Source: Archangium violaceum
GTDB lineage: Bacteria; Myxococcota; Myxococcia; Myxococcales; Myxococcaceae
Assembly: GCF_016887565.1 (NCBI RefSeq)
Contig: NZ_CP069396.1
Coordinates: 5,066,001 to 5,130,000, forward strand
DNA: 64,000 bases
Direction of reading: 5' to 3'
A program made the position numbers and the translations under genes. The first letter of the stretch is position 1. Each line of letters begins with the position of its first letter. A model generated the notes under the pieces. That model saw only the letters and a list, made by a program, of their open reading frames with translations. It searched no databases and was not told the DNA's origin. Shown in pieces: positions 19,328 to 34,372 of this stretch.

Positions 19328-19343
19328 CACTCCTGGTGGAGTG
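19328..19343. terminator. Hairpin between convergent ADYC and sigma-factor genes
   Basis: CACTCC (19328-19333), loop TGGT, GGAGTG (19338-19343), a perfect 6-bp stem extendable by two more pairs. It fills most of the 28-base convergent gap and could act in both directions. No long T run follows. Confidence 0.55.
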
Positions 19344-19355
19344 TTCCCCCCCGCG

Positions 19356-20297
19356 TCAGTCCTTCCCTGGAGGCCGGGGTACTCCATCCCGCACACCCAG
19401 GAGCTGACTGATGTTCAGCTCGAGCTGGCTGTCGAGGACGGCCAGGAAGCTCTTGAAGTCCCGGGTGGAGAGACCCAGACGCTCCTGCAGACGACGCCGG
19501 GTCTCCTCGTAGACCTCCTGCCGTGCACTCTTCAACCAGCGGGAGACTGTCGATTGATTGACACGAAAGAGCGAGGCCAGCTCGTACATCGAGAGCTGAT
19601 CGACGAAGTAGAGGCGCAGCAGGTGGCGGTCGTCGGCCGAGAGCTCGGAGAAGGCCTCGCGCACGGCCTGACGGAAGTCCGTTTGGTAGCGCCGCTTGAT
19701 GAGCTCCAGCTCCGCGTCCCCCCCCGGCGTTGGGATCTGCTCCAACTCGGGGTCCGAGTCTTGATCGGGCGCGGGCTTCTGGGCGGCCTGCAGCTTGATG
19801 GCGATGCGCACGGTGATGACACGCACCCAGCTCAACAGCGCGCCCCGGCCCGTGTACTCGGCGATCTTCGGGGCGCCTTCGGGCGTGGGGACCAGGAGCT
19901 TCACACGTGCCAGCTGGCAGATGTCGTCGATCATCGCCTCGGGCTGCTTGGGACCCCTGAGCAGCCCCGGCAGCTTCGCGAGGTAGTTCCGATCGAAGAG
20001 CTCGATGGCGGCGGGCGCACCCCGCAGACAGGCGCACGCCAGGTAGAGCTCCGCCAGGGACAGCTGCGCGAGCAGCGGCTCGATGGGGCTGTCGGGACTC
20101 GCCTCGGGTAGCCGCTCGGCGAGGTGTGTCACGAACGCCTCGGCGGGGAGCTCCACGGCCGGCCACCGCTCACGGGCGGTCTCCCATGCACGCAGGAGCA
20201 GTCCGTCGAGCTCGGCGGATGCCTCGGGTGGAATGAAGCGTACCTTCGCGTGTGCGAGAAACGTCGCGGCCAAGCCGGGCACCTGCGCCATTCTCAT
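19356..20297 (-). CDS. Sigma-70-family RNA polymerase sigma factor
   Basis: A 313-residue sigma factor of divergent ECF-like type. The C-terminal region 4 is clear: AFSELSADDRHLLRLYFVDQ followed by the helix-turn-helix YELASLFRVNQSTVSRWLKS. Upstream, DDICQLARVKLL and GALLSWVRVITVRIAI correspond to region 2. The N-terminal ~110 residues (pre-region 2) are longer than a minimal ECF factor. ATG at 20297. It is divergent from the kinase-nSTAND-FGE gene with only ~84 bases between starts, so shared regulation is likely. No membrane anti-sigma gene lies beside it, although the kinase has an N-terminal zinc-finger like those of anti-sigma factors. Confidence 0.87.
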   Translation of the reverse strand: MRMAQVPGLAATFLAHAKVRFIPPEASAELDGLLLRAWETARERWPAVELPAEAFVTHLAERLPEASPDSPIEPLLAQLSLAELYLACACLRGAPAAIELFDRNYLAKLPGLLRGPKQPEAMIDDICQLARVKLLVPTPEGAPKIAEYTGRGALLSWVRVITVRIAIKLQAAQKPAPDQDSDPELEQIPTPGGDAELELIKRRYQTDFRQAVREAFSELSADDRHLLRLYFVDQLSMYELASLFRVNQSTVSRWLKSARQEVYEETRRRLQERLGLSTRDFKSFLAVLDSQLELNISQLLGVRDGVPRPPGKD

Positions 20298-20381
20298 CCC
20301 TGTACCATGCGCTTCCTCGGGCCAGCAACGGGGGGCGTTGAGTGGCTCCCGGTCCACGACTAGCCTGCGCCCATCGACTCC

Positions 20382-23300
20382 ATGCGTCAGTCCACTCCCA
20401 GTGACAGCGGGTCGAGCCCATCCGATTGCCTGACGGATGAAGTCCTCGTCGATCTCCTCGATGGCCGGTTGTCGGACGAGGCGCTGACCCTCGCCCATCG
20501 ACACGCCGCCGGGTGCGTCCCCTGCCGGCTCCTCCTCTCCTCGGTGTCGCGCGGTGGCGTCGGGGGAGAGCAGAGCGTCGCGGAGAGTCCGGAGCCGGTC
20601 GTCGTCACCGCCGAGGAGCCGGGTGTCTCCTGGACGCCGCCCGACACGTTCGACGAGTTCCGTCTCGAGCGCATGCTCGGCCGCGGCGGCATGGGCGTCG
20701 TCTACCTGGCGCACGACACCTCGCTGGACCGGCGCGTGGCGGTGAAGTTCATCGCCTCGAGTCAGCCCGAGCCCTGGGTCCGCGCGTACTTCGAGACCGA
20801 GGCCCGTTCCATCGCCCGGTTGCAGCACCCGAACGTCGTCAATGTGTTCCGCGTCGGTGAGGTCGGCGGGCACCCGTACATCGTCTCCGAGTACGTCGTC
20901 GGCCAGAGCCTCGCGGAGCTGCCACTGCCGGTACCGTGGCGCCGCGTCCTGAGCCTCGGCATCGGTCTGGCCCGGGGGCTCGCGGCGGCGCATCGCCAGG
21001 GCGTGCTCCACCGCGACCTCAAGCCGTCCAACGCCCTCGTCACCGAGGACGGCGAGGTGAAGCTGCTCGACTTCGGTCTGGCCGAGCGTTTCGATCCGGG
21101 TGCGGCCTCGCCGTCGTCCAGCTCGAACCTCATCGTCGGCACGCGGCCCTACATGGCGCCCGAGTTGCTGGAGCGTGCTCCGGCGACTCCGAGGAGCGAC
21201 CTCTATGCCCTGGGACTCGTGCTCCACGAGCTGTGCACGGGCGAGCTGCCGCGGGGCATGCCTCGACGGCCGGAGGAGGAGCCACCACCGGCGGGAGGAG
21301 GGCAGGGGATCGATCCGGACTTCGCCGCGATCATCGCGCGGTGCCTCGCGCCCGACCCGCAGGACCGCTTCGCCTCGGCCGAGGTGCTCTGCGAGGCCCT
21401 GGAACGTCTCGAACGGAGCAGCGCCCCCGCGCCCCTGGTCGCCGGCAATCCCTATCGTGGCCTCGCGCCCTTCGAGGCCGAGCACCGGGAGCTCTTCTTC
21501 GGACGCGACGCGGACATCCGCGCCGTGCTCGACCGTCTCCGCCACCAGCCTCTCGTCCTCGTCGCCGGGGACTCGGGGGCCGGCAAGTCCTCGCTGTGTC
21601 GCGCCGGCGTGCTGCCCCGGGTGGCCGCCGGGGCCCTGGACGATGCGCGTGAGCAGAGACCGGTCACGCTGTGGCCCGGCCACCGCCCACTCGAGGCCCT
21701 GGCCGCCGCGCTCGCGCCCGTGCTGGATCGAAAGGAGGCGGAGCTCGTCACCGCGCTCGCGGACACGCCGGGCTGGCTCGGGCGGGCGCTGCGTGAGGCA
21801 CACCAGGGCGGGCGGGGTCTGCTCCTCTTCATCGATCAGCTCGAGGAGCTCATCACCCTCTCCGAGCCCACCCAGGCGGCGCACTTCGCCCGCATCCTCG
21901 GGGAGCTCGCCCTGCCGTCGGCGGGGGTGCGCGTGCTGCTGGCGGTGCGCGGCGACTTCCTGACGCGCCTGTGCTCCCTGCCCGGTCTGGGCGAGGAGGC
22001 CGAGCGGGCGCTCTACATCCTCCGCCCCATGTCTCCAGAGGGCGTGCGCGAGGCCATCGTGGGGCCCGCGCGCGGCCGTGGCGTGGTCTTCGAGTCCGCC
22101 GAGCTCGTCCAGACGCTCGTGGCGTCCACGGCGCACGGCGTGGGCAGCCTGCCCCTTCTCCAGTTCGCGCTCGCCGAGCTGTGGGAGCGGCGCGATCCGG
22201 CGCGAGGCCGCATCACGCGGGCGGCGCTCGAGGAGATGGGCGGAGTGGCCGGAGCGCTGTCACGGCATGCGGACGGAGTGCTCGCGCGCCTGAGTCCCGC
22301 CGAGCGCGAGGCCGCGCGGCGCCTCCTCCTCCAACTCGTGACGGGGGACGGCACGCGCATCGAGCGCGGCGAGGAGGAGCTCGTCGAGGCCTCGGATGGG
22401 GCCTCGCTCGTGGCCCTTCGCGCGCTCATCGAGGGTCGCCTCCTGCACACGCGCACCGCGCGCGGCCAGCCGCGCTGCGAGATCGCCCACGACTCGCTCA
22501 TCGAGAGCTGGGGCACGCTCCGAGACTGGCTCGACGATGACATCGGCCATCGCGCGGTGCGCAAGCGGCTCGAGGCGGCGAGCGCCGAGTGGGATCGCCT
22601 GATGCGCACCAGGGAGGCCCTCTGGGGGCAGCGTCAGCTCGACGAGGCCCGTGCGCTCGAGCCCTCCACCCTGGGGTCGCGCGAGCGTGCCTTCCTCCTC
22701 GCCTCCCGCCGCGCGGTGATGCGCCAGCGTTGGGGCCGATGGCTCGCCGCGCTCATCCTCGCGCTCGCCATCGCCGCCTCCTATGGAGGGCTTCGCCTGC
22801 AGGCGTACCTCGAGGACACGCGCTTCGTCGCCGCCCGGATCGGTCTGGCGCGGGAATTCCTCACCGAGGGGCGTGCCCTGGCCCAGCAGGCCAGCATGCG
22901 CCGGGAGGAGGCACTGGAGCTGTTCGACGGCCGGCCTTCTCCGTCCACGGGCTTCGAAACCCTGACGGGTCCCCAGGACCTCAGGAAGGCCGCGGAGCGG
23001 CAATGGACCGAGGCGCTCTCCCTGCGCGAGCGGGCCAATGCGGCCTATGCCCAGGCCAGCCGGACGCTCGACAAGGCCCTTGATCGCGAGCGTGGCCACG
23101 CGGGCACGCGCCAGCTCATCGCGGAGGTCACCTATGAACGGCTCCTCCTCGCCGAGCGCTTCCACCAGCGGCGCGAGCGCGACGAGTGGGTCCAACACCT
23201 GGAGCAGGTGACCGATACCTCGAAGGAGGGCGCGGAGTGGCGACAGCGGCTCCTGGCTCCGGCCGAGCTCGAGCTCGTGACGGAGCCCCCCGGTGCCCGC

Positions 23301-24347
23301 GTGGTGATCGAGCGCTACACCGACATCCAGGGAAAGCGACGCCGCGAGCCCGTTCCGGAGGCCGGTTCCCTGGGCCCGACGCCCCTCTCCCGCGTCCTCC
23401 TGCCCGAGGGCTCCTATCTCCTCCACGTCACGCATCCAGGGCGCGTGCCGGTGGAGCTGCCGTTGCTCCTCACGCACGGTGCCAGCGAGCGGATCCGCCT
23501 CATGCTCCCCACCCGGGTGCCCGCCGGCTATGTCTACATTCCGCCCGGGTGCTTCCTGCTGGGCAGCGCCGAGCCGGAGGAGGTGCGGGGCTTCATGCTC
23601 AGCCCGCCGATCCACCGGTTCTGTCTCAACGAGGGCTACCTGATCGGACAGCGGGAGGTGACGTTCGGCGACTGGCTGGCCTACCTCGACGACCTGCCCG
23701 CGGATGCGCCCGCGAGACGGGTCCTCGAGCAGCCGCGTTTCAGCACCACCGGGGCGGTCTCGCTGCGGCATCGGCCCGATACGGGCTGGGTCTTCTCCTT
23801 CTACCGTTCACGCGAGGACGTCTTCACGGCGAGGGAGGGGGAGACCTTCCGCTACCCGGGGAGGAGCCGGCGGAACACCGCCGACTGGCGCCGGTTTCCC
23901 CTGTCCGGCGTCTCCGCCGAGGACCTGGCGGGCTACTTCTACTGGCTCGACTATTCGGGGCGTCTTCCGGGAGCGCGCCTGTGCACCCAGAACGAGTGGG
24001 AGTTCGCCGCTCGCGGCGCGGATGGCCGCGGCTACCCCCATGGCGACCAGCTACTGCCCGACGATGCCAACATCGACACGACCTATGACCGGCAGCCCAC
24101 GGCCTTCGGACCCGACATGGTCGGCTCCCACCCGGTCTCGGTGAGCCCCTTCGGGCTGGAGGACATGGCTGGCAATGCCTTCGAGATCACACGCTCCGTG
24201 ACACCGGAGTTCGGGCGCGTCGTCCTGCGGGGTGGGGCGTGGTATTACGACGACTTCGGCGCGCACATCGCCAACATCTCCGTGGGCGATCCGACGGCGC
24301 GCGATGCCGCGATCGGCGTGCGCGTCTGTGCCTCGTTTTCTCCGTGA
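20382..24347 (+). CDS. Hanks-type Ser/Thr kinase fused to nSTAND NTPase, TM segment and FGE-sulfatase domain
   Basis: A 1321-residue multidomain signalling protein. Residues 16-48 form an anti-sigma-like zinc finger (HRHAAGCVPC, His-x3-Cys-x2-Cys). Residues ~93-345 are a complete kinase: LGRGGMGVVYLAHD, VAVKFIAS, HRDLKPSN (H210-D212), DFGLAE, APELLE. NPYRGLAPFEAEHRELFFGR leads into an nSTAND-type NTPase with Walker A GDSGAGKSS (~396-404) and LLLFIDQLEELITL. A membrane helix lies at ~787-806. After a helical stretch and a PEGA-like segment comes an FGE/SUMF1 fold from ~1049 (GYVYIPPGCFLLGS, NEWEFAARGADGRGYPHGD, VVLRGGAWYYDD, GVRVCASF). The canonical FGE Cys pair is not evident, so this C-type-lectin fold may bind rather than modify. 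Kinase inside and FGE outside the membrane is inferred. Confidence 0.9.
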   Translation: MRQSTPSDSGSSPSDCLTDEVLVDLLDGRLSDEALTLAHRHAAGCVPCRLLLSSVSRGGVGGEQSVAESPEPVVVTAEEPGVSWTPPDTFDEFRLERMLGRGGMGVVYLAHDTSLDRRVAVKFIASSQPEPWVRAYFETEARSIARLQHPNVVNVFRVGEVGGHPYIVSEYVVGQSLAELPLPVPWRRVLSLGIGLARGLAAAHRQGVLHRDLKPSNALVTEDGEVKLLDFGLAERFDPGAASPSSSSNLIVGTRPYMAPELLERAPATPRSDLYALGLVLHELCTGELPRGMPRRPEEEPPPAGGGQGIDPDFAAIIARCLAPDPQDRFASAEVLCEALERLERSSAPAPLVAGNPYRGLAPFEAEHRELFFGRDADIRAVLDRLRHQPLVLVAGDSGAGKSSLCRAGVLPRVAAGALDDAREQRPVTLWPGHRPLEALAAALAPVLDRKEAELVTALADTPGWLGRALREAHQGGRGLLLFIDQLEELITLSEPTQAAHFARILGELALPSAGVRVLLAVRGDFLTRLCSLPGLGEEAERALYILRPMSPEGVREAIVGPARGRGVVFESAELVQTLVASTAHGVGSLPLLQFALAELWERRDPARGRITRAALEEMGGVAGALSRHADGVLARLSPAEREAARRLLLQLVTGDGTRIERGEEELVEASDGASLVALRALIEGRLLHTRTARGQPRCEIAHDSLIESWGTLRDWLDDDIGHRAVRKRLEAASAEWDRLMRTREALWGQRQLDEARALEPSTLGSRERAFLLASRRAVMRQRWGRWLAALILALAIAASYGGLRLQAYLEDTRFVAARIGLAREFLTEGRALAQQASMRREEALELFDGRPSPSTGFETLTGPQDLRKAAERQWTEALSLRERANAAYAQASRTLDKALDRERGHAGTRQLIAEVTYERLLLAERFHQRRERDEWVQHLEQVTDTSKEGAEWRQRLLAPAELELVTEPPGARVVIERYTDIQGKRRREPVPEAGSLGPTPLSRVLLPEGSYLLHVTHPGRVPVELPLLLTHGASERIRLMLPTRVPAGYVYIPPGCFLLGSAEPEEVRGFMLSPPIHRFCLNEGYLIGQREVTFGDWLAYLDDLPADAPARRVLEQPRFSTTGAVSLRHRPDTGWVFSFYRSREDVFTAREGETFRYPGRSRRNTADWRRFPLSGVSAEDLAGYFYWLDYSGRLPGARLCTQNEWEFAARGADGRGYPHGDQLLPDDANIDTTYDRQPTAFGPDMVGSHPVSVSPFGLEDMAGNAFEITRSVTPEFGRVVLRGGAWYYDDFGAHIANISVGDPTARDAAIGVRVCASFSP

Positions 24348-24365
24348 TTCAGAGGGGGGTTGGAC

Positions 24366-27300
24366 ATGCGACGCATTCTTGGATGGATGACGGTTGTCAT
24401 TCTTTGTTGTTGGGTGGGGACGGCGGTCGCGGAGGAGCCGGCGGATGCGCGGCTACAGGAGGCGCAGACGGCCTTCGACGAGGCGAAGCAGCTCCACAAC
24501 GCGGGCAAGTTCGTGGATGCCACCTCGCGGGCCGAGCATGCGCTCGCGCTGCGGGAGGCGGTGCTCGGGGGCGCGCATCCAGAGGTCGCCAGGAGTCTGC
24601 AATTGCTGGGGGCCATCTACCTGGCGCGAGGGCAATTCGCCCGGGTCGAGCCCCTGCTTCAGCGCGGACTGGAGATCCGGGAAGCGGCGCTCGGGAAGGA
24701 CCATCTCGACGTCGCCGACTCGCTCAATGGCCTTGGCAAGTTCTATTCGGATCGAGGGTCGTATGAGCGCGCCGAGCTCCTGCTTCAGCGCGCGCTGAAG
24801 ATCCGGGAAGCGGCGCTCGGCGAGAACCATCGCGACGTCGCCATGACGATCAACAACCTCGCCAACCTCTACAGTGCACAGGGTTTGTACGCGCGTGCCG
24901 AGCCCCTCTACCAGAGGACGCTCGCGATCTACGAAGCGGTTCTCGGCACCCAGCATCCCCTCGTCGCCCGATCACTCAGCAACCTCGCCATCCTCTACGC
25001 TCAACAAGGGTTGCACGGCCAGGCCGAGCCGCTCCTCGAGCGTGCACTCGCCATTCTCGAGGCGGCGCTCGGGAAGGACCATCCCGACGTCGCCCAGGTA
25101 CTCAACAACCTCGCGGGCCTTTACCATGATCAAGGTTCGTACGAGCGGGCCGCGCCACTTCACGAGCGCGCGCTGGCCATTCGCGAAGTGGCCCTGGGCA
25201 AGGTCCATCCCCTCGTCTCGATGTCGCTCATCAACCTCGCCAACGTCTACCTTGCCCAGGGTCTGTATGAGCGGGCGGAGCGCCTCTACGAACGTGCGAT
25301 TGCAATCAATGAAGCAACGTTCGGGAAGAGCAGCCCTCACGTTGCCACCGCCCTTGGCAACCTCTCCACCGCCTACATCACCCGGGGTGCTTATGACCGG
25401 GCCGAGCCGTTGCTTCAGCGTGCGCTCGCGATTCGGGAAGCGGCCCTGGGCAAGAATCACCCGGATGTCGCCCACTCGCTCAACGGCCTCGCCAATATCT
25501 ACAGGTTCCAGGGGTTCTACGATCGCGCCGAGCCGCTTTATGAGAGGGCCCTCTCGATCTGGGAAGTGGCCCTGGGCAAGAACCATTCCCTCGTCGCCAC
25601 CGTGCTCGGCAATCTCGCGCAGCTCCACAAGGTCCGGGGGCAGTACGAGCGGGCCAGGTCGCTCAATGAGCGTGCGCTCGCGATTCGGGAAGCGGCCCTG
25701 GGCAAGAACCATCCCGAGGTCGCTGAGTCACTCGACAGCCTCGCCAATCTCTACGTGAATCAGGGGCTCTATGCTCGGGCCAGGCCGCTCTTCGAGCGCG
25801 CGCTCGCCATCCAGGAAGCAGCGTTCGGCAAGAACCACGACCGGAGCGCTCGCGTGCTCAACAACCTCGCCGGCTGCTACGAGAGCCAGGGGGCCTATGA
25901 GCGGGCCGGGCCGCTGTTCCAGAAGGCGCTCGCCATCTTGGAAGAGACCGTCGGTGCGAATCACCCCAACGTCGGCAGGGCGCTCGGCTCCCTTGCCCAG
26001 ATCCGGTTGGCCCAACATCGTCTCACCGAGGCCTTGCCGCTGTTCTCTCGCTCCTTCGCCATTTCCGAGGGGCGTTTGCGGCAGGAGGCCTTGTCCTTCT
26101 CGGAGTCTCGCCTGACGAGCTTCCTCGCGCTTCTGCGTGCCGAGGAGGAGCGGCTCTACGCGTTGCTGCGCGCGCATCCAGACGACGCCGCCGTGAGGCG
26201 TCTGGCCCTGGGTGCCGCGCTCCTCCTCAAGGGCCGCTCCGTCGAGGAGACGGCCGACACCTCGCGCACCATCTACCGGAGCCTGGGCACCGAGGACCGT
26301 GACGGTTTCGAGCGGCTGCGAGGACTGCGCGCCCGGATCGCCAAGCTGTCGCTCGATGGCCCCGGCTCGCTCGCACCCGCCGACTACCAACGGCGCCTGA
26401 AGGAGCTCACCGAGCAGGGTGACGCCCTCGAAGCCGATCTGGCCAGGCGCTCGGCTCCCCTGCGCGTATTGAGGGCGTTGCCGGCTCCCGATGAGATTGT
26501 CGAGCGCGTCGCCGCGGCGCTTCCCGAGGACGGCGTTCTCGTCGAGCTCCTCGCCTACACGGACTATCCACTCAATCGCAAGCGCAAGCCCGGCACGCCA
26601 GAACGGGAGACGCCGGGTGAGCCCCGCTATCTGGCATTGGTGCTCTTCCCCGACGGGCGGACCCGAGCGCTCGACCTGGGGCCCGCCGCGCCCATCGATG
26701 CCGCCGCCTCGCGCCTGCGCGATGCCCTGGCCATCCGCGACGCCTCCTTCCAGACCCACGCCCAGGCGCTTCATGACCAGGTCTTCCGGCCCCTGTTGCC
26801 GCTGCTGGGTGAGACCCGCCGCCTGTTCCTCTCTCCCGACGGACAGCTCGGCCTCGTCCCCTTCGCCGCCCTGCACGATGGCCAGCGGTTCCTCGTGGAC
26901 GCCTTCGACATCACCTATCTCACTTCGGGCAGGGACCTGCTGCCACGCCCCCAGGACACGGCTGCCTCGCACTCGGTGGTCGTCCTGGCTGACCCGGACT
27001 TCAGCGCCGCTCCCCTGGCACCCACCTCCTCGGAGGCTCCTGCCTCGGAGCTGGCCGAGCGTTCCGCGTCCCTCGAGCGTTTCTTCTCCGCGCGGAGTGC
27101 CGAGCTGGCGGAGGGCTCGTGGACACCCCTGCCCGGCACCCGCCAGGAGGCCGAGGCCATCCAGCGTCTGATTCCCCAGGCCCAGCTCTTCCTGGGTCCG
27201 GAAGCCACCAAGGAGCGGCTGCTGCACCTGGCCACGCCCGGGGTGTTGCACGTGGCCACCCATGGCTTCTTCCTGGATGACGCTCCGGTGCCCGAGGGCT

Positions 27301-27833
27301 CGCGCGCCGTGGGCCACTTCGGTGCGTTGGGAGACCCGGCCCGAGCCCTGGCGCCCGACCCGCTGTTGCGCTCGGGGCTCGTACTGGCGGGAGCGCGTGC
27401 CCCGGCACCTGAGGGCTCCGCGAAGACGCCGTCCGAGGGCGCGCTGGTGACGGCGCTGGAGCTGGCGGGACTCAACCTGTGGGGCACGGAGCTGGTGGTG
27501 CTGTCGGCGTGCGACACGGGGCGAGGGGACGTGAAGCCAGGGCAGGGGGTGTACGGGTTGCGCCGGGCCTTCGTGGTGGCCGGAGCCGAGACGGTCGTCA
27601 TGAGCCTGTGGAAGGTGAAGGACGACACGACGAGGCAGTTGATGGAGGGCTACTACCGCAACCTGCTGGCGGGGCAGGGGAGGGCCGTGGCGCTGCGCGA
27701 GGCGATGCGCGCATTGCGTCAAACCCAGCCCCACCCCCACGACTGGGCGCCCTTCATCGTCCTGGGCCGTGACGCCCCCCTGCGCTCGCTCGCGCCCGAG
27801 CCCCCGGGGGTCGCCGGAGAAATCATCCGCTGA
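24366..27833 (+). CDS. Exported TPR-CHAT protein (caspase-like protease), copy 1
   Basis: An 1155-residue protein likely exported by Sec: signal peptide MRRILGWMTVVILCCWVGTA then VAEE. From residue ~61 twelve 42-residue kinesin-light-chain-type TPRs follow without a break (AIREAALGKNHPDVAHSLNG... pattern). The C-terminal ~370 residues are a CHAT domain of the caspase clan, with the putative dyad His966 (HVATHGFF) and Cys1049 (LSACDTGRGD), then GLRRAFVVAGAETVVMSLWKV. Start is ATG 24366 behind GAGGGGGG; it lies 18 bases after the kinase-nSTAND-FGE stop, so they are probably co-transcribed. Family CHAT proteins act as proteases in cell-death and type III-E CRISPR settings, but those are cytoplasmic. 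Substrate is unknown. The paralogue at 30156 is very similar. Confidence 0.9.
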   Translation: MRRILGWMTVVILCCWVGTAVAEEPADARLQEAQTAFDEAKQLHNAGKFVDATSRAEHALALREAVLGGAHPEVARSLQLLGAIYLARGQFARVEPLLQRGLEIREAALGKDHLDVADSLNGLGKFYSDRGSYERAELLLQRALKIREAALGENHRDVAMTINNLANLYSAQGLYARAEPLYQRTLAIYEAVLGTQHPLVARSLSNLAILYAQQGLHGQAEPLLERALAILEAALGKDHPDVAQVLNNLAGLYHDQGSYERAAPLHERALAIREVALGKVHPLVSMSLINLANVYLAQGLYERAERLYERAIAINEATFGKSSPHVATALGNLSTAYITRGAYDRAEPLLQRALAIREAALGKNHPDVAHSLNGLANIYRFQGFYDRAEPLYERALSIWEVALGKNHSLVATVLGNLAQLHKVRGQYERARSLNERALAIREAALGKNHPEVAESLDSLANLYVNQGLYARARPLFERALAIQEAAFGKNHDRSARVLNNLAGCYESQGAYERAGPLFQKALAILEETVGANHPNVGRALGSLAQIRLAQHRLTEALPLFSRSFAISEGRLRQEALSFSESRLTSFLALLRAEEERLYALLRAHPDDAAVRRLALGAALLLKGRSVEETADTSRTIYRSLGTEDRDGFERLRGLRARIAKLSLDGPGSLAPADYQRRLKELTEQGDALEADLARRSAPLRVLRALPAPDEIVERVAAALPEDGVLVELLAYTDYPLNRKRKPGTPERETPGEPRYLALVLFPDGRTRALDLGPAAPIDAAASRLRDALAIRDASFQTHAQALHDQVFRPLLPLLGETRRLFLSPDGQLGLVPFAALHDGQRFLVDAFDITYLTSGRDLLPRPQDTAASHSVVVLADPDFSAAPLAPTSSEAPASELAERSASLERFFSARSAELAEGSWTPLPGTRQEAEAIQRLIPQAQLFLGPEATKERLLHLATPGVLHVATHGFFLDDAPVPEGSRAVGHFGALGDPARALAPDPLLRSGLVLAGARAPAPEGSAKTPSEGALVTALELAGLNLWGTELVVLSACDTGRGDVKPGQGVYGLRRAFVVAGAETVVMSLWKVKDDTTRQLMEGYYRNLLAGQGRAVALREAMRALRQTQPHPHDWAPFIVLGRDAPLRSLAPEPPGVAGEIIR

Positions 27834-27839
27834 TTTCCT

Positions 27840-27879
27840 GCATGACTTTCCAGCTCAGGGGCTCTGCCTTCATGGGGGG
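27840..27879 (+). repeat. Short dispersed repeat, copy B
   Basis: Starts gcatga and has tttcc-agctca-gggctct and a g6 run. It matches copy C at 33626 in 20 of the first 26 bases. It lies just after the stop of the first CHAT gene, the same place copy C has after the second CHAT gene, so it may belong to the duplicated unit. Copy A at 18175 is not next to a CHAT gene. Confidence 0.55.
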
Positions 27880-27926
27880 CACCTGTTCGGGCCCCGAATT
27901 TGACACTTGCCTGCTGGAAAGGGCCC

Positions 27927-30116
27927 ATGCGCATGCGCATCCGTTGGTTCTCCGCTTTGGTTGGAGCAGTCCTCTTCTGTGCCTGTACGGAGCAGCCACC
28001 CCCCGCCGACTGCAAGGCATCGCAGTCGCCTCCGGTCGCCCAGGCGGGACCGGACCAGACGATCAAGCCAGGCGCGCTCGTCACGCTCGAAGGGGCGGCC
28101 TCCACCGTCCCCGGAGAGCAGGGCCGCTATCACTGGACGCTCTCGAACGTTCCCAGCGGCAGCAAGGCCGGGTTGTCGGATGTCTCCAGCCGCACTCCCA
28201 CCTTCACGGCGGATCTGCCGGGCCTCTACGTGGCCACGCTGGTCGTCTCGGACAGCTGCCAGCAGAGCAGTCCGGACACCGTCCTCGTGAAGGCCGAGCA
28301 GCCCGTGCCGCCCGAGAACCAGCGACCGGTGGCCCGCCCGGGTTCCTCCAGGCAGGTGGAGCTCGGCCTGCCCGTGGAGCTCGACGGCAGCGCCAGCTCC
28401 GATCCGGAGGACAGCGCGCTCACCTACAGCTGGTCCTTCGCTTCGGTCCCCTCGGGCAGCGCGGCCGTGCTCTCGCAGCCCACCTCCGCGAAGCCCTCCT
28501 TCACCCCGGACCTGGTGGGCGCCTACATCGTCCGGCTGGTGGTCAGCGACGGAAAGCTCGAGTCCGAGCCGGTGTTCATCACCCTCACCGGCAAGAACAC
28601 CGGGCCCGCCGCGCCCGTCGCGCGTCCAGGTGCTTCACGCACCGTGCTCAGCCGCAGGCCGGTGACGCTGGATGGCAGCGCGAGCTCCGCCGCGAGCGGG
28701 GAGCCGCTCACCTACAGCTGGACCTTCGTCTCGGTCCCCACCGGCAGCACCGCCGCGTTCTCGGACGCGACCCTCGTGAAGCCCACCTTCACCCCCGACA
28801 TGGACGGGGACTACGTCGTCCAACTGATCGTCAGCGACGGCCTGCACCCGTCCGCGCCGGCCACCCTCACCCTGACGGCCCAGAACCGGGCACCGGTGGC
28901 CAACGCGGGTGCCGACCTCATCGTCTCCGTGGGCTCCGCCGCGACTCCGAAGGGGCAGGGGAGTGACGACAATGGTGACACCCTCACCTTCACCTGGACG
29001 CTCACCCGCAAGCCCACGGGCAGTGCCTCGACCCTGAGTGGCGGCAACACCCCGACGCCTTCCCTCCGGCCGGATCTCGAAGGCACCTATGAGCTGTCGC
29101 TCGTGGTGGACGATGGCCGCGCCACGAGCCCCGCCGACACGGTGGTCCTCACCGCCGAGCGCCCCACCACCCACGGGCTCGGCCACCGCGTCCTCGACGC
29201 CGAGTACAGCAAGTCGCTCGACCGGGTCGTGATGGTCGCCGCCGACCCCAACACCCTCTACGTCTACGACCCCGCGACGCACACCGAGAAATCCGTGGCG
29301 CTGCCCCTGGCTCCCACCGCCGTGAGCGTGGCGCCGGACGGCAAGTTCGCGGCGGTGGGCCATGACGCGTACATCTCCTACGTCGATCTCTCCACGCCCG
29401 CGCTCCTGAAGAGCATTCCGGTGAGCGCGGACGCGTTCGACGTCGTTCTCGCGGGCAATGGCTATGCCTATGTCTTCCCCCGCGTGGACCAGTGGGTGGG
29501 GATCCACTCCATCGAGATCGCCACCGGGAAGGAGTCGCTGGGCTCCTCCTACTCCATCCGCGCGGGCACGCGGGCGCGCCTGCACCCGGGTGGCACCGCC
29601 ATGTACGGAGCCGACAACGGACTGTCCCCGGACGATATCGAGCGGTACGACATCAGCACCGGGATCGCCAAGGTCGCCTACGACTCGCCCTACCATGGCA
29701 ACTACTACATGTGCGGAGACCTCTGGTTCTCCGAGGACGGTGCCCGCATCTTCACCCGCTGCGGCAACACCTTCCGTGCCTCCAGCGTCAGGTCCGAGGA
29801 CATGGTCTACGCGGGAGCGCTGTCCGGAGCCAGTGCCATCCATCACCTGACGCACTCCACCGCGGCCAACCGCATCGCGCTGGTGCAGGAGAGCTATGGC
29901 ACCTCGGAGGTGGGCAAGCAGGTGCGCCTCTACACGCCCGACTTCCTCAACTTCGATCAGGCCATCCCGCTGCCGCCCTTCAAGGTGAACGCCACCGAGT
30001 ACGCCAGCTACGGCCGTTTCGTGTTCTACTCCGCGGCGGGTGACAGGCTGATCGTGGTGGTCCAGGCCGCCGCGAGCTCCGGAATGCTGAACGACTACGG
30101 CATCGTCACCTTCTGA
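27927..30116 (+). CDS. PKD-repeat lipoprotein with C-terminal propeller-like domain
   Basis: A 729-residue probable outer-surface lipoprotein. The signal MRMRIRWFSALVGAVLFCAC ends in a lipobox-like FCAC (Cys20). Four ~90-residue PKD/Ig-like beta domains follow; each has a VARPGxSR-type start, a DGSASSDPE or similar turn, YSWxF and PxFTPDLxGxYxVxLVVSDG. From residue ~410 a repetitive beta region (LYVYDPATHTEKSV, VSVAPDGKFAAVGHDAY, ERYDISTGIAKV) suggests a beta-propeller. ATG 27927 is behind GGAAAGGG. It sits between the two CHAT genes, 39 bases before the second, so it is a candidate partner or substrate. No enzymatic motif is seen. Confidence 0.82.
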   Translation: MRMRIRWFSALVGAVLFCACTEQPPPADCKASQSPPVAQAGPDQTIKPGALVTLEGAASTVPGEQGRYHWTLSNVPSGSKAGLSDVSSRTPTFTADLPGLYVATLVVSDSCQQSSPDTVLVKAEQPVPPENQRPVARPGSSRQVELGLPVELDGSASSDPEDSALTYSWSFASVPSGSAAVLSQPTSAKPSFTPDLVGAYIVRLVVSDGKLESEPVFITLTGKNTGPAAPVARPGASRTVLSRRPVTLDGSASSAASGEPLTYSWTFVSVPTGSTAAFSDATLVKPTFTPDMDGDYVVQLIVSDGLHPSAPATLTLTAQNRAPVANAGADLIVSVGSAATPKGQGSDDNGDTLTFTWTLTRKPTGSASTLSGGNTPTPSLRPDLEGTYELSLVVDDGRATSPADTVVLTAERPTTHGLGHRVLDAEYSKSLDRVVMVAADPNTLYVYDPATHTEKSVALPLAPTAVSVAPDGKFAAVGHDAYISYVDLSTPALLKSIPVSADAFDVVLAGNGYAYVFPRVDQWVGIHSIEIATGKESLGSSYSIRAGTRARLHPGGTAMYGADNGLSPDDIERYDISTGIAKVAYDSPYHGNYYMCGDLWFSEDGARIFTRCGNTFRASSVRSEDMVYAGALSGASAIHHLTHSTAANRIALVQESYGTSEVGKQVRLYTPDFLNFDQAIPLPPFKVNATEYASYGRFVFYSAAGDRLIVVVQAAASSGMLNDYGIVTF

Positions 30117-30155
30117 GGCACGATGCCGCGCCTGCGTGCGCGACGAGGGGGGGAA

Positions 30156-33100
30156 ATGCGGCGGTTTCTCACGTGGATGACGGTGGTGCTCCTGTTCTGT
30201 GCGGCGGGAGCCGCCGCCGGTGAGGAGCAGCCGGATGCGCGGTTGCAGGAGGCGCAGACGGCCCTGGATGAGGCGAAGCAGCTCTACGGCGCGGGCAAGT
30301 ACGCGGAGGCGACTTCCCGGGCCGAGCATTCCCTGGCCCTACGGGAAGCGGTACTCGGGGGCACGCATCCAGAAGTCGCCAAGAGCCTGCATCTGCTCGG
30401 CGCCATCTACCTGGCTCGAGGAGAATTCGCCCGGGCCGAGCCCCTGTTCCAGCGCTCGCTGGAGATTCGAGAAGCGGCGCTCGGGAAGAGCCATCCCGAT
30501 GTCGCCGCCTCGCTCAATGCCCTCGGCAAGCTCTACTCGGACCGGGGGTTGTATGCTCGCGCCGAGCCCCTGCTTCAGCGCGCGCTGGAGATTCGGGAAG
30601 CGGCGCTCGGCGAGAAACACGACGACGTCGCCATGACGCTCAACAACCTCGCCAACCTCTACAGGGCACAGGGCTTGTACGCGCGCGCCGAGCCCCTCTA
30701 CCAGAGGACGCTCGCGATTCATGAAGCGGTTCTCGGCGCCAACCATCCCCTCGTCGCCCAATCGATCAACAATCTCGCCATCCTCTATTATGGACAGGGG
30801 TTGTACAGCCAGGCCGAGCCGCTCTTTCAGCGTTCACTCGCCAGCCTCGAGGCGGCGCTCGGGAAGGACCATCCCGACGTCGCCTACGTGCTCAACAATC
30901 TCGCGAGCGTCTACCATGCTCGAGGTTCGTACGAGCGGGCCGCTTCACTTTACGAGCGCGCGATTGCCATTCGAGAAGCAGCCCTGGGCAAGGACCATCC
31001 CCTCGTCGCCACCGCGGTCGGCAACCTCGCCAACGTCTACCGCGATCAGGGCTTGTATGAGCAGGCCGAGCGCCTCTACACCCGTGTGATTGCCATCAAC
31101 GAGGTAGCGTTCGGCAAGGACAATCCCCGCGTCGCCACCACTCTCGGCAATCTCGCCAACGTCTATATCGATCAGGGCCAGTATGAGCGGGCCGAGGCGT
31201 TGTTCCAGCGTGCGCTCTCCATTTGGGAAGTGGCCCGGGGCAAGGAGCATCCCGAGATCGCCCCATTGGTCACCGGCCTTGCCATCATCTACAGGCGCCA
31301 GGGGTTCTACGAGCGCGCGGCGCCATTCTATGAGAGGGCTCGCTCGATCTGGGAAGCGGTCCTGGGCAAGGACCATCCCCACGTCGCCACCGCGCTCGGT
31401 AATCTCGCGCAACTCTACAATGATCAAGGGCAATACGCACGGGCCAGGCCGCTCTATGAGCGTGCGCTGGAGATTCGGGAAGCGGCTCTGGGCAAGAACC
31501 ATCCCGAGGTCGCTGACGCACTCGACAGCCTCGCCAATCTCTACAAGGAACAAGGGCAATACGAGCGGGCCAGGCCGCTCTTCGAGCGTGCGCTCGCCAT
31601 CCATGAAGCGGCCTTCGGCAAGAAACATCCCGCGAGCGCTCGCGTGCTCAACAACCTCGCCACCTTCTACGATCACTCAGGGGCCCAGGAGCGAGCCGAG
31701 CCTCTGGTGCGGCGCGCGCTCGCTCTCTGGGAAGAGACCCTTGGCGCGAATCATCCCAACGTCGCCACGGCGCTTGGATTGCTTGCCCATATCCGGCTCG
31801 CCCGACATCGCCTCTCCGAGGCCCTGCCACTGCTCACACGCTCCTTCGTCATTTCCGAGGGGCGTCTGCGGCGGGAGGCCCTCGACTTCTCCGAGGTGCG
31901 TCTGGCCAACTTCCTCCAGTTCCTGCGCGCCGAGGAGGAAGGTCTCTACGCGCTGCTGCGAGCCCATCCAGAGGATGCCCGGGTCCGACGCCTGGCCCTC
32001 GGCGCCGTGCTCCTCCTCAAGGGCCGCTCCGTCGAGGAGACGGCCGACACCTCGCGCACCATCTATCGCAGCCTGAGCGCCGAGGACCGCGACACCTTCG
32101 AGCGGCTGCGAGGTTTGCGTACCCAGCTCGCGAAGCTCTCGCTCCAGGGCCCCGTTTCGCGAGCACCCGCCGACTATCAGCGGCGCCTGAAGGAGCTCAT
32201 CGAGCAGGGCGACGCCCTCGAAGCCGACCTCGCCAGACGCTCTGCCCCCCTGCGCGCGCGCAGAGCGCTGCCGGCTCCCGATAAGGTCGTCGACCGGGTG
32301 GCCGCCGCTCTTCCCAAGGATGGGGCCCTCGTCGAGCTCATTTCCTACGTGGACCATCCGCTCGTTCACGCGCCCGGCACGAGCGAACCGAAGACGCCGG
32401 GTGAGCCCCGCTATCTGGCCGTGGTGCTCTTTCCCGACGGGCGGACCCGGGTGCTCGACCTGGGGCTCGCCGCGCCCATCGATGCCGCTGCCTCGCAGCT
32501 GCGCCATGCCCTGGCCATCCGCGACGCCGCCTTCCAGACCCATGCCCAGGCGCTCCACGACCAGGTCTTCCGGCCCCTGTTGCCGCTGCTGGGAAAGACG
32601 CGCCGCCTGTTCCTCTCGCCCGATGGACAGCTCGGCCTCGTCCCCTTCGCCGCCCTGCACGATGGCCAGCGGTTCCTCGTTGACGCCTTCGACATCACCT
32701 ATCTCACCTCGGGCAGGGACCTGCTGCCGCGCCCCCAGGAAACGGCTCCCTCCCACTCGGTGGTCGTCCTGGCCGACCCGGACTTCAGCGCCGCTCCCTC
32801 GGCACCCACCTCCTCGGAGGCTCCTGCCTCGGAGCTGGCAGAGCGCTCCGCGTCCCTCGAACGATTCTTCTCCACGCGGCGCGCGAGTCTGGCGGAGGGC
32901 TCCTGGACGCCCCTGCCCGGCACCCGACAGGAGGCCGAGGCCATCCAGCGTCTGATTCCCCAGGCCCAGCTCTTCCTGGGCCTGGAGGCCACCAAGGAGC
33001 GGCTGCTGCACCTGGCCACACCCGGGGTGTTGCACGTGGCCACCCATGGCTTCTTCCTGGATGACGCTCCGGTGCCCGAGGGCTCGCGCGCCGTGGGCCA

Positions 33101-33608
33101 CTTCGGTGCGTTGGGAGATCGGGCCCGAGCCCTGGCGCCCGACCCGCTGTTGCGCTCCGGCCTCGTGCTGTCGGGAGTACGAGCCCCGGCGCCTGATGGC
33201 TCCGCGAAGACGCCGTCCGAGGGCGCGTTGGTGACGGCGCTGGAACTGGCGGGACTCAACCTGTGGGGCACGGAGCTGGTGGTGCTGTCGGCGTGCGACA
33301 CGGGCAGAGGGGACGTGAAGCCAGGGCAGGGGGTGTACGGGCTGCGCCGGGCCTTCGTGGTGGCAGGGGCGGAGACGGTCGTCATGAGCCTGTGGAAGGT
33401 GAAGGACGACACGACGAGGCAGTTGATGGAGGGCTACTACCGCAACCTGCTGGCGGGGCAGGGGAGGGCCACGGCGCTGCGCGAGGCGATGCGCGCATTG
33501 CGTCAGACCCAGCCCCACCCCCACGACTGGGCGCCCTTCATCGCCCTGGGCCGTGACGCGCCCCTGCGCTCGCTCGCGTCTGGACCCCAGGCGGCGCTGG
33601 AAAAATAG
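30156..33608 (+). CDS. Exported TPR-CHAT protein (caspase-like protease), copy 2
   Basis: An 1150-residue paralogue of the protein at 24366. It has the Sec signal peptide MRRFLTWMTVVLLFCAAGAA, the same twelve 42-residue TPRs from residue ~61, and a CHAT domain with His964 (HVATHGFF) and Cys1047 (LSACDTGRGD). The CHAT halves of the two genes are nearly identical even at silent sites, whereas the TPR halves differ much more. ATG 30156 follows a GAGGGGGGGAA run; in-frame ATG 30123 is less likely. It is the last gene of the block and ends just before a strong hairpin at 33674-33709. Exported location and protease activity are inferred from sequence. Confidence 0.9.
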   Translation: MRRFLTWMTVVLLFCAAGAAAGEEQPDARLQEAQTALDEAKQLYGAGKYAEATSRAEHSLALREAVLGGTHPEVAKSLHLLGAIYLARGEFARAEPLFQRSLEIREAALGKSHPDVAASLNALGKLYSDRGLYARAEPLLQRALEIREAALGEKHDDVAMTLNNLANLYRAQGLYARAEPLYQRTLAIHEAVLGANHPLVAQSINNLAILYYGQGLYSQAEPLFQRSLASLEAALGKDHPDVAYVLNNLASVYHARGSYERAASLYERAIAIREAALGKDHPLVATAVGNLANVYRDQGLYEQAERLYTRVIAINEVAFGKDNPRVATTLGNLANVYIDQGQYERAEALFQRALSIWEVARGKEHPEIAPLVTGLAIIYRRQGFYERAAPFYERARSIWEAVLGKDHPHVATALGNLAQLYNDQGQYARARPLYERALEIREAALGKNHPEVADALDSLANLYKEQGQYERARPLFERALAIHEAAFGKKHPASARVLNNLATFYDHSGAQERAEPLVRRALALWEETLGANHPNVATALGLLAHIRLARHRLSEALPLLTRSFVISEGRLRREALDFSEVRLANFLQFLRAEEEGLYALLRAHPEDARVRRLALGAVLLLKGRSVEETADTSRTIYRSLSAEDRDTFERLRGLRTQLAKLSLQGPVSRAPADYQRRLKELIEQGDALEADLARRSAPLRARRALPAPDKVVDRVAAALPKDGALVELISYVDHPLVHAPGTSEPKTPGEPRYLAVVLFPDGRTRVLDLGLAAPIDAAASQLRHALAIRDAAFQTHAQALHDQVFRPLLPLLGKTRRLFLSPDGQLGLVPFAALHDGQRFLVDAFDITYLTSGRDLLPRPQETAPSHSVVVLADPDFSAAPSAPTSSEAPASELAERSASLERFFSTRRASLAEGSWTPLPGTRQEAEAIQRLIPQAQLFLGLEATKERLLHLATPGVLHVATHGFFLDDAPVPEGSRAVGHFGALGDRARALAPDPLLRSGLVLSGVRAPAPDGSAKTPSEGALVTALELAGLNLWGTELVVLSACDTGRGDVKPGQGVYGLRRAFVVAGAETVVMSLWKVKDDTTRQLMEGYYRNLLAGQGRATALREAMRALRQTQPHPHDWAPFIALGRDAPLRSLASGPQAALEK

Positions 33609-33625
33609 CCCGCGAATTCTTCGAT

Positions 33626-33666
33626 GCATGAGTTCCCGGGTCACGGGCTCCTGTGTTGTAGGGGGG
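33626..33666 (+). repeat. Short dispersed repeat, copy C
   Basis: Starts gcatga, with cccgggtcacgggctc and a g6 run at the end. Copies A (18175) and B (27840) share 20 of the first 26 bases with it. It lies between the end of the second CHAT gene and its terminator hairpin. Confidence 0.55.
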
Positions 33667-33673
33667 TGGGGTT

Positions 33674-33709
33674 CCCCCGGGCCCCTGGAGGAGGGGCGGG
33701 GCCCGGGGG
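33674..33709. terminator. Strong bidirectional hairpin closing the CHAT block
   Basis: CCCCCGGGCCCC (33674-33685) and GGGGCCCGGGGG (33698-33709) are perfect 12-bp arms around a 12-base loop. It separates the convergent CHAT and NlpC/P60 genes. There is no T run, common for GC-rich genomes. Confidence 0.65.
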
Positions 33710-33729
33710 CACTCCGTGCCATGTGCCCA

Positions 33730-34326
33730 TCAGTACCTCAGCCCGGGAACCAGAGCGCCCAGCGTCCACTCACGATTGGCGCTGAAGCTGCCCACGCCGT
33801 AGGCACTGCCCCTGGCCTCGATGGTCATCCCGTTCCCCAGGCTGATGGCGACATGCTCGGGCCTGAAGAGCAGCGCTCCCCGGGTGCGCTTGGCCTGGTC
33901 GATGGAGATGACCGTGTTGTTGCGCTGGCAGTAGGGGATCTGGTTCATCGTCCCATCCGGCATGAAGACGCCCACCTGGTGCGCCGCCCATTCCACCAGC
34001 TCCGAGCAGTCGAAGGCCGAGGGGTTGGGATCGGCCAGATTGACCTCCGCGCCGTAGACGTAGCGATCGCCGGACTGCGACAGGGCTCTCTGCACGAAGG
34101 CCTCGGCCGTGGCGCTGGTGCCTAGCAGCCGGCTCCATGTCATGGGACCGACAATGCCATCCACCACGAGGCCATTGGCGCGCTGGAAGGCCATCACCGC
34201 CTGCTTCGTCTGCGCGCCGAAGATGCCGTCCACCGGCCCTGGGTTGTAGCCAGCCGCCAGGAGCCTGCGCTGGAGCTCGACGACCGCGGAACCACTGGAG
34301 CCTTCCTTCAACGTTTCGTAACTCAT
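33730..34326 (-). CDS. Peptidoglycan-binding NlpC/P60-type peptidase
   Basis: A 198-residue two-domain protein that probably cleaves or remodels cell-wall peptides. Residues ~5-65 are a PG_binding_1 domain (GSAVVELQRRLLAAGYNPGPVDGIFG with AVMAFQRANGL). The rest is an NlpC/P60 papain-like fold with catalytic Cys in SAFDCSELVEWAAHQVG and His in RPEHVAISLGNG. There is no signal peptide, so export would need another route. A prophage or toxin-like role is possible. ATG 34326 has GAGGAGAGAC directly upstream, favoured over the ATG at 34341. An inverted repeat lies ~50 bases upstream. Confidence 0.85.
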   Translation of the reverse strand: MSYETLKEGSSGSAVVELQRRLLAAGYNPGPVDGIFGAQTKQAVMAFQRANGLVVDGIVGPMTWSRLLGTSATAEAFVQRALSQSGDRYVYGAEVNLADPNPSAFDCSELVEWAAHQVGVFMPDGTMNQIPYCQRNNTVISIDQAKRTRGALLFRPEHVAISLGNGMTIEARGSAYGVGSFSANREWTLGALVPGLRY

Positions 34327-34372
34327 GATGTCTCTCCTCATTCGGTGGCGACGGAGTCGCCGTCGCCGGGTG

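Follow-up and report, generated by a model that had tools for sequence, protein, structure and literature searches.

Which genes act together in an Archangium violaceum locus that joins a σ factor, a multidomain kinase and caspase-like TPR-CHAT proteins, and in what kind of regulatory system? The window analysed here, a 64,000-nucleotide stretch of contig NZ_CP069396.1, had been described in a first-pass annotation as holding a candidate five-gene system, ended by a hairpin, that could serve in signal-controlled proteolysis or defence. The reading favoured here, to which we give a probability of about two in three, is that the locus encodes a σ/anti-σ signalling unit in which a ZAS receptor kinase holds the σ factor, an ADYC protein acts as partner and the regulon consists of exported proteins.

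Organization of the locus

The genes of the locus were confirmed as first listed, and two central parts, the ZAS domain and the ADYC gene, had been overlooked. The features are the following, in window coordinates.

18167–18200, + strand: promoter-like site before the ADYC gene (score 48.9; in the matrix training set)
18248–19327, + strand: exported ADYC-domain protein (PF20032), 359 residues, convergent with the σ gene
19356–20297, − strand: σ70-family factor, TIGR03001 (Sig-70_gmx1); stop at 19356, ATG start at about 20291 or 20297
20382–24347, + strand: ZAS-kinase-nSTAND1-TM-FGE membrane protein, 1321 residues (Pkinase, nSTAND1 and FGE domain matches)
20427–20525, + strand: ZAS motif C16-x24-H41-x3-C45-x2-C48 in the kinase gene (zf-HC2 match; anti-σ structure matches of the model)
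20661–21392, + strand: Ser/Thr kinase domain with intact VAVK, HRDLKPSN and DFG motifs
21450–22610, + strand: nSTAND1 NTPase domain (345.9 bits)
22743–22799, + strand: single transmembrane segment, residues 788–806 (hydropathy)
23526–24326, + strand: FGE-fold domain, predicted outside the membrane (domain match; RGG region without cysteines)
24366–27833, + strand: exported TPR-CHAT protein 1 (HGFF and SACDT motifs; ATG at 24366 likelier than TTG at 24360)
27832–27865, + strand: promoter-like site before the PKD lipoprotein gene (score 48.5; outside the training set)
27927–30116, + strand: PKD-repeat lipoprotein with a further C-terminal domain (likely ATG 27927; PKD by Pfam)
30156–33608, + strand: exported TPR-CHAT protein 2, 81% identical to protein 1 (alternative start 30123)
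33618–33651, + strand: degenerate promoter-like site 3′ of TPR-CHAT gene 2 (score 16.0)
33674–33709, + strand: perfect inverted repeat, arms 33674–33685 and 33698–33709 (12 nt each), loop 12 nt

The σ factor, divergent from the plus-strand kinase gene as first reported, scores 322.7 bits against TIGR03001 (curated cut-off 154.6), and the domain matches and one hydrophobic segment of the kinase bear out the proposed kinase-nSTAND-membrane helix-FGE fusion. The PKD repeats were recovered by Pfam, and the two TPR-CHAT proteins, which carry N-terminal export signals (by reading), score 268.9 (protein 1) and 266.7 bits (protein 2) for the CHAT domain (cut-off 24), with the expected His and Cys in the HGFF and SACDT motifs of both. 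Formylglycine-generating FGE enzymes have a catalytic cysteine pair in their RGG region; that of the kinase (RGGAWYYDDFGAHIANI) is cysteine-free, which sets its FGE fold apart from these enzymes.

Gaps of 18 nt between the kinase and TPR-CHAT 1 genes, and of 6 nt between the PKD gene and the first ORF start of TPR-CHAT 2, are compatible with co-transcription of each pair. The promoter-like site at 27832 suggests a candidate transcription start for the PKD gene itself, and because of it 20382–33608 may be more than one transcript. The hairpin that had been taken to end the unit has perfect arms and is probably its end, although it is without a T-run and absent from the terminator scan listing. 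No Rfam family matched positions 17000–35000 at gathering scores.

The closest relative lacks the CHAT-PKD-CHAT block. It keeps, 3′ of its kinase, a near-copy of the hairpin and a diverged stub of a TPR-CHAT 3′ end (~82% alike) with a promoter-like site; the retention of this stub points to a deletion there and not to an insertion here. The block was considered as a mobile element and this was rejected, on the evidence of the stub and because no inverted pair links its edges among the 25 longest of the 44 listed.

The proposed ZAS receptor kinase, its σ factor and the ADYC protein

When ZAS domains were aligned (21 rows), H28, C32 and C35 were invariant and C3 was present in 20 rows (His in L089). 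The Pfam model zf-HC2 matches 20 of the 21 members at E-values up to 1 (best 9.2e-08) and gives 20.1 bits for the window's own kinase, just below its cut-off of 22.2. In a Foldseek search with a 49-residue ZAS model, anti-σ factors made up seven of eight PDB rows (four entries) at E-values of 1.9 or worse, and the VIA Z scores of this model were 5.3 for RslA, 5.0 for RsiW, 4.0 for ChrR and 2.4 for DdvA, with none above 5.3.

Across 91 loci, a TIGR03001 σ gene adjoins 33 of 35 kinases with the ZAS motif and none of the 56 without it, and the two locus sets agree (20/21 and 13/14 with ZAS; 0/20 and 0/36 without). The first count leaves out L057 (at a contig end) and L105; for the second, 55 of 70 loci (L109–L163) were taken and L154, L155, L159, L160 and L163 were removed (no kinase above 400 bits), which left 14 loci that have the motif and 36 that lack it. 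A σ or CHAT gene is scored as missing when no tblastn match exceeds 60 bits in a stretch of up to ~20 kb, less at contig ends. Both exceptions (L082 and L115) fall in one six-row subclade that has no σ factor of its own, and there ZAS is degenerate or gone. The genome of the window contains 10 TIGR03001 genes, all of which adjoin a ZAS-motif kinase except L032 (1.3 kb away). These distributions support the σ factor and the kinase with its predicted anti-σ domain as a recurrent pair, in which ZAS, at the kinase N-terminus, would bind and hold the TIGR03001 protein. The predicted topology places the kinase and nSTAND1 domains in the cytoplasm, followed by one membrane helix and the FGE fold outside.

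Alternatively, the kinase might phosphorylate and so activate the σ factor, on the pattern of PknT and EcfP (ECF43), with the zinc finger as a mere docking site. The intact kinase motifs would allow this, and precedents for σ factors linked to Ser/Thr kinases appear in PMC8999054. However, the σ factors here do not show the loss of the acidic σ2.2 DAED motif that marks ECF43: two adjacent acidic residues are found in 21 of 22 aligned σ factors (L089 is degenerate; the register was set by eye). In addition, the added domain resembles an anti-σ fold and decays where the σ factor is absent, so we regard activation by phosphorylation as quite unlikely compared with retention by ZAS.

An ECF-like promoter was also considered for the σ or kinase gene and rejected; the intergenic region shows instead a TTGA...TA box that looks housekeeping-like. 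Of the 32 loci given, 11 have this box 5′ of the kinase; it differs from the two-box motif found before ADYC genes, and none of 19 CHAT genes checked is preceded by it.

The ADYC gene lies outside the interval first annotated, and its product scores 188.6 bits against PF20032 (curated cut-off 27). All 39 close-clade kinase loci have a homologue; in 59 genomes, 57 of the 68 such kinases have an ADYC gene no more than 2.5 kb away, and ADYC and kinase occupy the same 20 genomes. Within 5 kb of a kinase lie 59 of 75 ADYC genes, where 0.4 would be expected. A set of 195 genomes includes 73 with both genes and two with ADYC only, and ADYC occurs in 73 of 73 kinase genomes. Judged by this linkage, ADYC is the most conserved partner of the kinase. 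The exported protein would be the dedicated outside partner of the receptor, perhaps a ligand-binding co-receptor, and a surface signal read by FGE and ADYC would change the state of the NTPase and kinase, with putative phosphorylation, and the σ factor would be released.

The phrase 'ADYC domain' was not found in the literature searched. A confident ADYC model (pLDDT 90.3) had no significant fold match (best Foldseek E 0.26); its best Z was 2.4, and because only Foldseek's own list was re-scored, the absence of higher values proves little. The ADYC profile also gave weak sequence matches to designed β proteins (best E 0.00017), which may be compositional.

A broader proposal, made tentatively, is that ADYC and kinase-nSTAND1-TM-FGE proteins form a myxobacterial family of surface receptors for innate sensing. 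One branch of this family could have captured an anti-σ domain and a σ factor, so that it controls transcription of exported proteins, including TPR-CHATs used against, or to recognise, neighbouring cells. No such receptor family was found in the literature searched.

A two-box promoter-like motif and the variable TPR-CHAT genes

The motif GATT-N3-TGCATSATT ... TC-N3-GGCTC lies 5′ of ADYC in 22 of 22 loci of the σ subclade, 21 of which are the training loci of a matrix built from the ADYC sites of that same subclade, and the spacing from TGCAT to GGCTC is 21 nt in 19 of 19 relatives. A 400-kb Markov sequence contained no site above score 8. Among 72 sites in 59 genomes, 70 (eight of them ADYC sites) fall within the 10 genomes that have this σ subclade, compared to one for the reversed control; two genomes of the same genus without the subclade have one site (G003) and none (G015). 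The motif is absent at the more distant σ-kinase loci L031, L081, L084–L090 and L120, with one weak match (13.5) at L083, and a match of 12.4 occurs at the unrelated σ locus L034. Which σ factor reads the motif we infer from this co-occurrence in related genomes.

In the genome of the window, nine of 10 motif sites precede exported products (by reading). In other genomes the same is true of 38 of 52 sites, versus 168 of 504 control frames, by a rough heuristic export test that is positive for 33% of the control frames, some of which are non-genes (54 sites were fetched; L230 and L254, with no site above score 8, were left out, and L204 and L225, with no frame, were counted as not exported). 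The released σ factor would transcribe from the two-box promoter before ADYC and about nine other genes of this genome. Nearly all genes of this candidate regulon would encode exported proteins, and they include the PKD lipoprotein gene (followed by TPR-CHAT 2) and a TPR-CHAT gene that stands alone elsewhere in the genome.

The presence and orientation of TPR-CHAT genes vary among loci: they stand at 20 of 39 close-clade loci (including L087, which has a CHAT fragment only), with none in the stretch at the other 19, and at none of 52 sister-clade loci (17 from the first set and 35 from the second). A total of 47 TPR-CHAT genes was counted (50 rows before three split rows were joined); a kinase lies no more than 10 kb from 14 of them, where 0.5 would be expected, and farther than that from the other 33. 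Because none of the other kinase loci examined has the PKD gene and the CHATs are present at some loci and absent from others, the five-gene unit as such was rejected, and its co-conservation, the check first suggested, fails also in the closest relative, which has lost the block.

These data raise the question of whether CHAT and PKD are passenger genes at a variable site beside a conserved ADYC-σ-kinase unit. The missing block, the solitary PKD gene and the variable CHAT orientation are what this would lead one to expect; however, the restriction of TPR-CHATs to the close clade, their excess near kinases and the motif before the PKD gene make it unlikely.

Of six loci that lack a σ factor, five still have both the kinase and CHAT, and the two are kept together at σ-less loci such as L038, L079 and L122; therefore, CHAT is not only a σ target. 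The motif was seen directly 5′ of only two TPR-CHAT genes (L039 and L244), and the CHATs linked to kinases seem to be carried on other transcripts.

As DegS cuts the anti-σ RseA and Csx29 cuts Csx30 in type III-E CRISPR, so an exported TPR-CHAT might be a protease that cuts the outside part of the ZAS kinase and starts σ release, which we consider unlikely. The predicted compartment is shared by the CHATs (export signals by reading) and the FGE domain, and the joint occurrence of kinase and CHAT without σ would fit such a role. A precedent exists in type III-E CRISPR (Csx29-Csx30-CASP-σ), in which a CHAT protease relieves an anti-σ according to PMC10028731, and PMC8999054 proposes proteolytic control for ECF54, with CHAT proteins among the neighbours. 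On the other hand, the stretch is free of CHAT genes at 19 of the 39 close-clade loci, and the kinase of the closest relative is still constrained (dN/dS 0.27) though its local CHAT block is lost, albeit with other CHATs in that genome. Within the σ/anti-σ signalling unit that we favour, proteolysis by the CHAT proteins is putative, as are their targets.

A cell-death or anti-phage module, in which invasion would be detected by nSTAND/FGE and the CHATs would act as executioners, is very unlikely. It is true that the conflict systems predicted in multicellular bacteria include nSTAND1, FGE, kinase and CHAT domains (PMC10907252 and PMC8195603) and that PADLOC models match the kinase. PD-T4-6 models reach 226 bits on the kinase domain, and C3a189 scores 139 bits over residues 96–805, a span of kinase and nSTAND that slightly raises the odds of this reading. 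For the CHAT proteins a TPR model is the only match, and domain matches of this kind are not decisive. Against this stand the CHAT export signals, a candidate regulon of mostly exported proteins, the recurrence of the σ-kinase-ADYC core in Myxococcaceae and Archangiaceae relatives, and the lack of any PADLOC match for eight neighbours (ADYC and seven flanking genes). Thus, from the module first proposed, signal control is retained, through the recurrent σ/anti-σ pair and the TPR-CHATs beside 20 of 39 loci, whereas defence finds little support.

If the σ/anti-σ unit is real, the ADYC family would gain a function, a kinase and a STAND NTPase would be built into an anti-σ factor, and caspase-like bacterial proteins outside the cytoplasm would come under a named σ factor. 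Since its promoter motif and some ten targets are named, the circuit is directly testable in a culturable myxobacterium.

Comparison with known systems

The earlier comparison with type III-E CRISPR remains useful as an analogy, since there, as here, TPR-CHAT, anti-σ function (predicted in the present case) and σ factor are found in one locus. It does not extend to the CHATs, which here have export signals (by reading) while Csx29 is cytoplasmic, or to the anti-σ, which here would be a receptor kinase; by domain and PADLOC models, the genes scanned include no Cas7-11/gRAMP gene or CRISPR array. ECF54 σ factors likewise have a CHAT protein in their gene context but are described as acting without an anti-σ factor. 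The nSTAND1-FGE conflict proteins of multicellular bacteria share nSTAND1 and a C-terminal FGE (CLec-type) putative sensor, whereas the protein described here is predicted to span the membrane, is fused to a kinase and is tied to a σ factor and ADYC.

With the STPK-linked σ factors (EcfP-PknT, EcfK-PknS; ECF43) the locus shares a Ser/Thr kinase gene that adjoins the σ gene. It departs from ECF43 in having a TIGR03001 σ factor that keeps the acidic pair in σ2.2 and a kinase with its own anti-σ-like domain. The ZAS anti-σ factors (RsiW, DdvA, ChrR and RslA) resemble it in the HxxxCxxC zinc motif, the predicted three-helix fold and the adjacent σ gene. RsiW and RseA have their N-terminus in the cytoplasm and one membrane helix, a topology also predicted here; unlike in the ZAS anti-σ factors, a Ser/Thr kinase and nSTAND1 stand between ZAS and the membrane helix, with an FGE fold predicted outside.

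The kinase N-terminus and the neighbouring sigma gene

Re-analysis of the locus, which lies in a 13.2-Mb genome assembled as one contig, bore out the genes for the sigma factor, the kinase, the PKD lipoprotein and both TPR-CHAT proteins, as well as the 12-bp hairpin, of the first-pass annotation, which had remarked on neither the ADYC gene nor the cysteine motif of the kinase described below.

Features of the locus (window coordinates)
18167, promoter-like motif site before the ADYC gene, used in matrix training
18248-19327 (+), exported protein with an ADYC domain (PF20032), convergent with the sigma gene
19356-20297 (-), sigma factor, TIGR03001 (Sig-70_gmx1)
20382-24347 (+), putative receptor kinase
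24366-27833 (+), first TPR-CHAT protein (CHAT1)
27832, motif site, score 48.5, 95 nt before the PKD lipoprotein gene
27927-30116 (+), PKD lipoprotein
30156-33608 (+), second TPR-CHAT protein (CHAT2)
33618, degenerate motif site, score 16.0
33674-33709, 12-bp hairpin
33730-34341 (-), NlpC/P60 protein with a peptidoglycan-binding domain, within the block missing from the closest relative

The kinase clusters with Myxococcaceae and Archangiaceae sequences and comprises Pkinase, nSTAND1, a single hydrophobic segment and a formylglycine-generating-enzyme (FGE) fold; the RGG region of the latter is without cysteines, and this domain is probably a binding domain rather than an enzyme. Residues 1-50 contain C16-x24-H41-x3-C45-x2-C48, which includes the H-x3-C-x2-C core of a predicted zinc-binding anti-sigma (ZAS) domain. 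Pfam zf-HC2 matches 20 of 21 ZAS members, and the window's own copy scores 20.1 bits, slightly below the cut-off of 22.2. An AlphaFold2 model of the domain (pLDDT 84.5) retrieved ChrR, RsiW, RslA and DdvA in seven of eight Foldseek rows, at E-values of 1.9 or worse, with structural Z scores of 5.3 for RslA, 5.0 for RsiW, 4.0 for ChrR and 2.4 for DdvA; the top PDB chain in a sequence profile search, DdvA, was not significant (E 0.21).

The motif and the sigma gene occur together. In the first set of loci, H-x3-C-x2-C was present in 21 kinases and absent from 20; a TIGR03001-type sigma gene lay divergent and within a few hundred bases of 20 of the former, and none was found beside the latter. 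In the named genomes such a gene adjoined 13/14 kinases with the motif versus 0/36 without, and pooling both sets gave 33/35 versus 0/56, for which the Fisher p of 9e-23 overstates the association because the loci are kin. A quick tree of 52 kinases (SH-aLRT support) provides a natural experiment, a six-member subclade (L115, L082, L122, L080, L038 and L079; support 99) in which no sigma gene of its own was found in the stretches searched, the nearest to L082 being 1.3 kb off and adjoining a different kinase. Two of these six kinases retain the ZAS motif minus the first His of HxH, a residue kept by all 33 sigma-adjacent kinases, and four are without ZAS; a TPR-CHAT gene lies near five. This subclade therefore supports the view that ZAS accompanies the sigma factor, and that the kinase-CHAT link can outlast it. 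At L038 and L079 the TPR-CHAT gene sits directly before the kinase gene and in the same orientation.

All 10 TIGR03001 genes of the window's genome adjoin a motif-bearing kinase, except that at L032, which is 1.3 kb away. Eight of these kinases were scanned (all but the window's and that of L031) and have Pkinase; seven carry zf-HC2 (17.2-31.0 bits) and TPR repeats in place of nSTAND1-FGE, and the L032 kinase has neither zf-HC2 nor TPR repeats. The ZAS-kinase-TPR proteins, which sit next to TIGR03001 sigma genes at L029, L030 and L033-L037, form a second, larger kinase family with an anti-sigma-like domain in this genome.

The ADYC partner and a promoter-like motif

An ADYC homologue is present at 39/39 loci of the close clade, and weaker homologues occur in the sister clade (13/18 loci L091-L108 and 30/35 further loci, Sorangium and Nannocystis included). 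Across 59 genomes, 75 ADYC domains and 68 kinases (counted at E up to 1e-120) fall in the same 20 genomes; an ADYC gene lies within 2.5 kb of 57/68 kinases, and a kinase within 5 kb of 59/75 ADYC domains (0.4 expected), leaving 16 ADYC domains and 11 kinases partnerless at those distances, some on short contigs. Of an overlapping set of 195 genomes of the phylum, with three candidates scored per genome in one of the two scans, 75 have ADYC and 73 have the kinase, in every case together with ADYC; only G066 and G080 have ADYC without the kinase. The window's genome also has two short ADYC frames (G000:C1:2455157 and 4981898), each more than 100 kb away from the nearest such kinase. The ADYC protein was modelled with confidence, and the model had no significant match among the solved folds searched; the phrase 'ADYC domain' was not found in the literature searched.

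In the window's subclade, GGATTyCcTGCATgATT...GGTCaCcGGCTCT lies upstream of ADYC, the TGCAT-GGCTC distance being 21 nt in 19/19 sites measured. When 400 kb of Markov sequence was scanned with a matrix built from 21 sites, no match exceeded score 8. The motif is present at 22/22 subclade loci, L116 (21.3) being the only one outside training; at score 12 it was absent from sigma-less kinase loci and more distant family sigma loci, bar L083 (13.5), and an unrelated sigma locus, L034, matched at 12.4. The window holds three pattern matches versus 0.01 expected. With up to two mismatches allowed, the 59 genomes contain 72 sites, 70 of them in the ten genomes bearing the subclade's sigma factor (G000, the window's genome, 10; G001 9; G002 18; G004 2; G005 7; G018 4; G019 4; G032 6; G033 7; G034 3), although 8 of the 70 are ADYC sites, the source of the pattern. 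The other 49 genomes have two (one each in G003 and G026), and a reversed pattern gave one. Without this sigma factor, G003, a same-genus genome, has one site and G015, of the genus of G032, none.

Three of the ten sites in the window's genome precede genes for ADYC, the PKD lipoprotein and an isolated TPR-CHAT protein (L039), and two more lie before genes for exported proteins, one a DUF4214 protein of 155 aa and the other 207 aa long. A further three precede lipoprotein genes, of which one encodes PQQ-type repeats and another SBBP propeller repeats, and the last two stand before a lipoprotein-like gene and a radical-SAM gene; by their N-termini, products at nine of ten are predicted to be exported. 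From the 62 sites elsewhere, seven at ADYC genes and one at the G005 stub were left out, 54 were fetched and 52 scored; an export signal lies downstream of 38/52 versus 168/504 control frames (p 4e-8). Another TPR-CHAT gene, L244, is among those scored. It is therefore likely that the motif marks a regulon whose products are exported, in many cases as lipoproteins.

TPR-CHAT and PKD genes

TPR-CHAT genes occur at 20/39 close-clade loci versus 0/52 in the sister clade (p 1e-9), and by reading, 20 of 24 copies run in the direction of the kinase (14) or of the sigma gene (6). At the thresholds used, the same 13 of 59 genomes have a TPR-CHAT protein of the window's kind and a close-clade kinase; 33/47 CHAT genes lie >10 kb from such a kinase. 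Among 19 copies read, the HG motif is present in 18, the SAC motif in 19 and an export signal or lipobox in 17; the L087 copy is a fragment and that of L041 is truncated.

The closest relative is without block 24348-34497 and retains a TPR-CHAT 3' stub, the promoter-like motif and a near-copy of the hairpin, so the block was probably lost there; its kinase is still constrained (dN/dS 0.27). In the window, CHAT1 and CHAT2 share 92-94% DNA identity in their CHAT halves and 80-86% elsewhere, which suggests duplication followed by conversion or stronger constraint.

Kelch/PKD lipoproteins or pieces of them lie near kinase loci L116 (6409-8676), L077, L084 and L112; that of L116 sits between kinase and CHAT, like the window's PKD lipoprotein. 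Look-alike lipoproteins follow motif sites at L207, L208 and L210 of G002, by reading.

Proposed mechanism and precedents

With this architecture, linkage and motif, the most likely mechanism is one in which ZAS would bind the sigma factor and keep it at the membrane, FGE and ADYC would read a putative outside signal, and the state of the kinase and NTPase, presumably through phosphorylation, would govern sigma release; the freed sigma factor would switch on exported proteins, ADYC itself among them. The literature searched yielded no description of a kinase-STAND-FGE receptor that carries a fused anti-sigma domain, which is not proof of absence. The available text of one study reports sigma-70 genes as common to four M. 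xanthus metacaspase operons (PMC3501461), and that of another reports that Csx29 cleaves Csx30 (PMC10028731). By analogy, the CHAT proteins may be either an output of the system or cutters of the receptor, as Csx29 is of Csx30.
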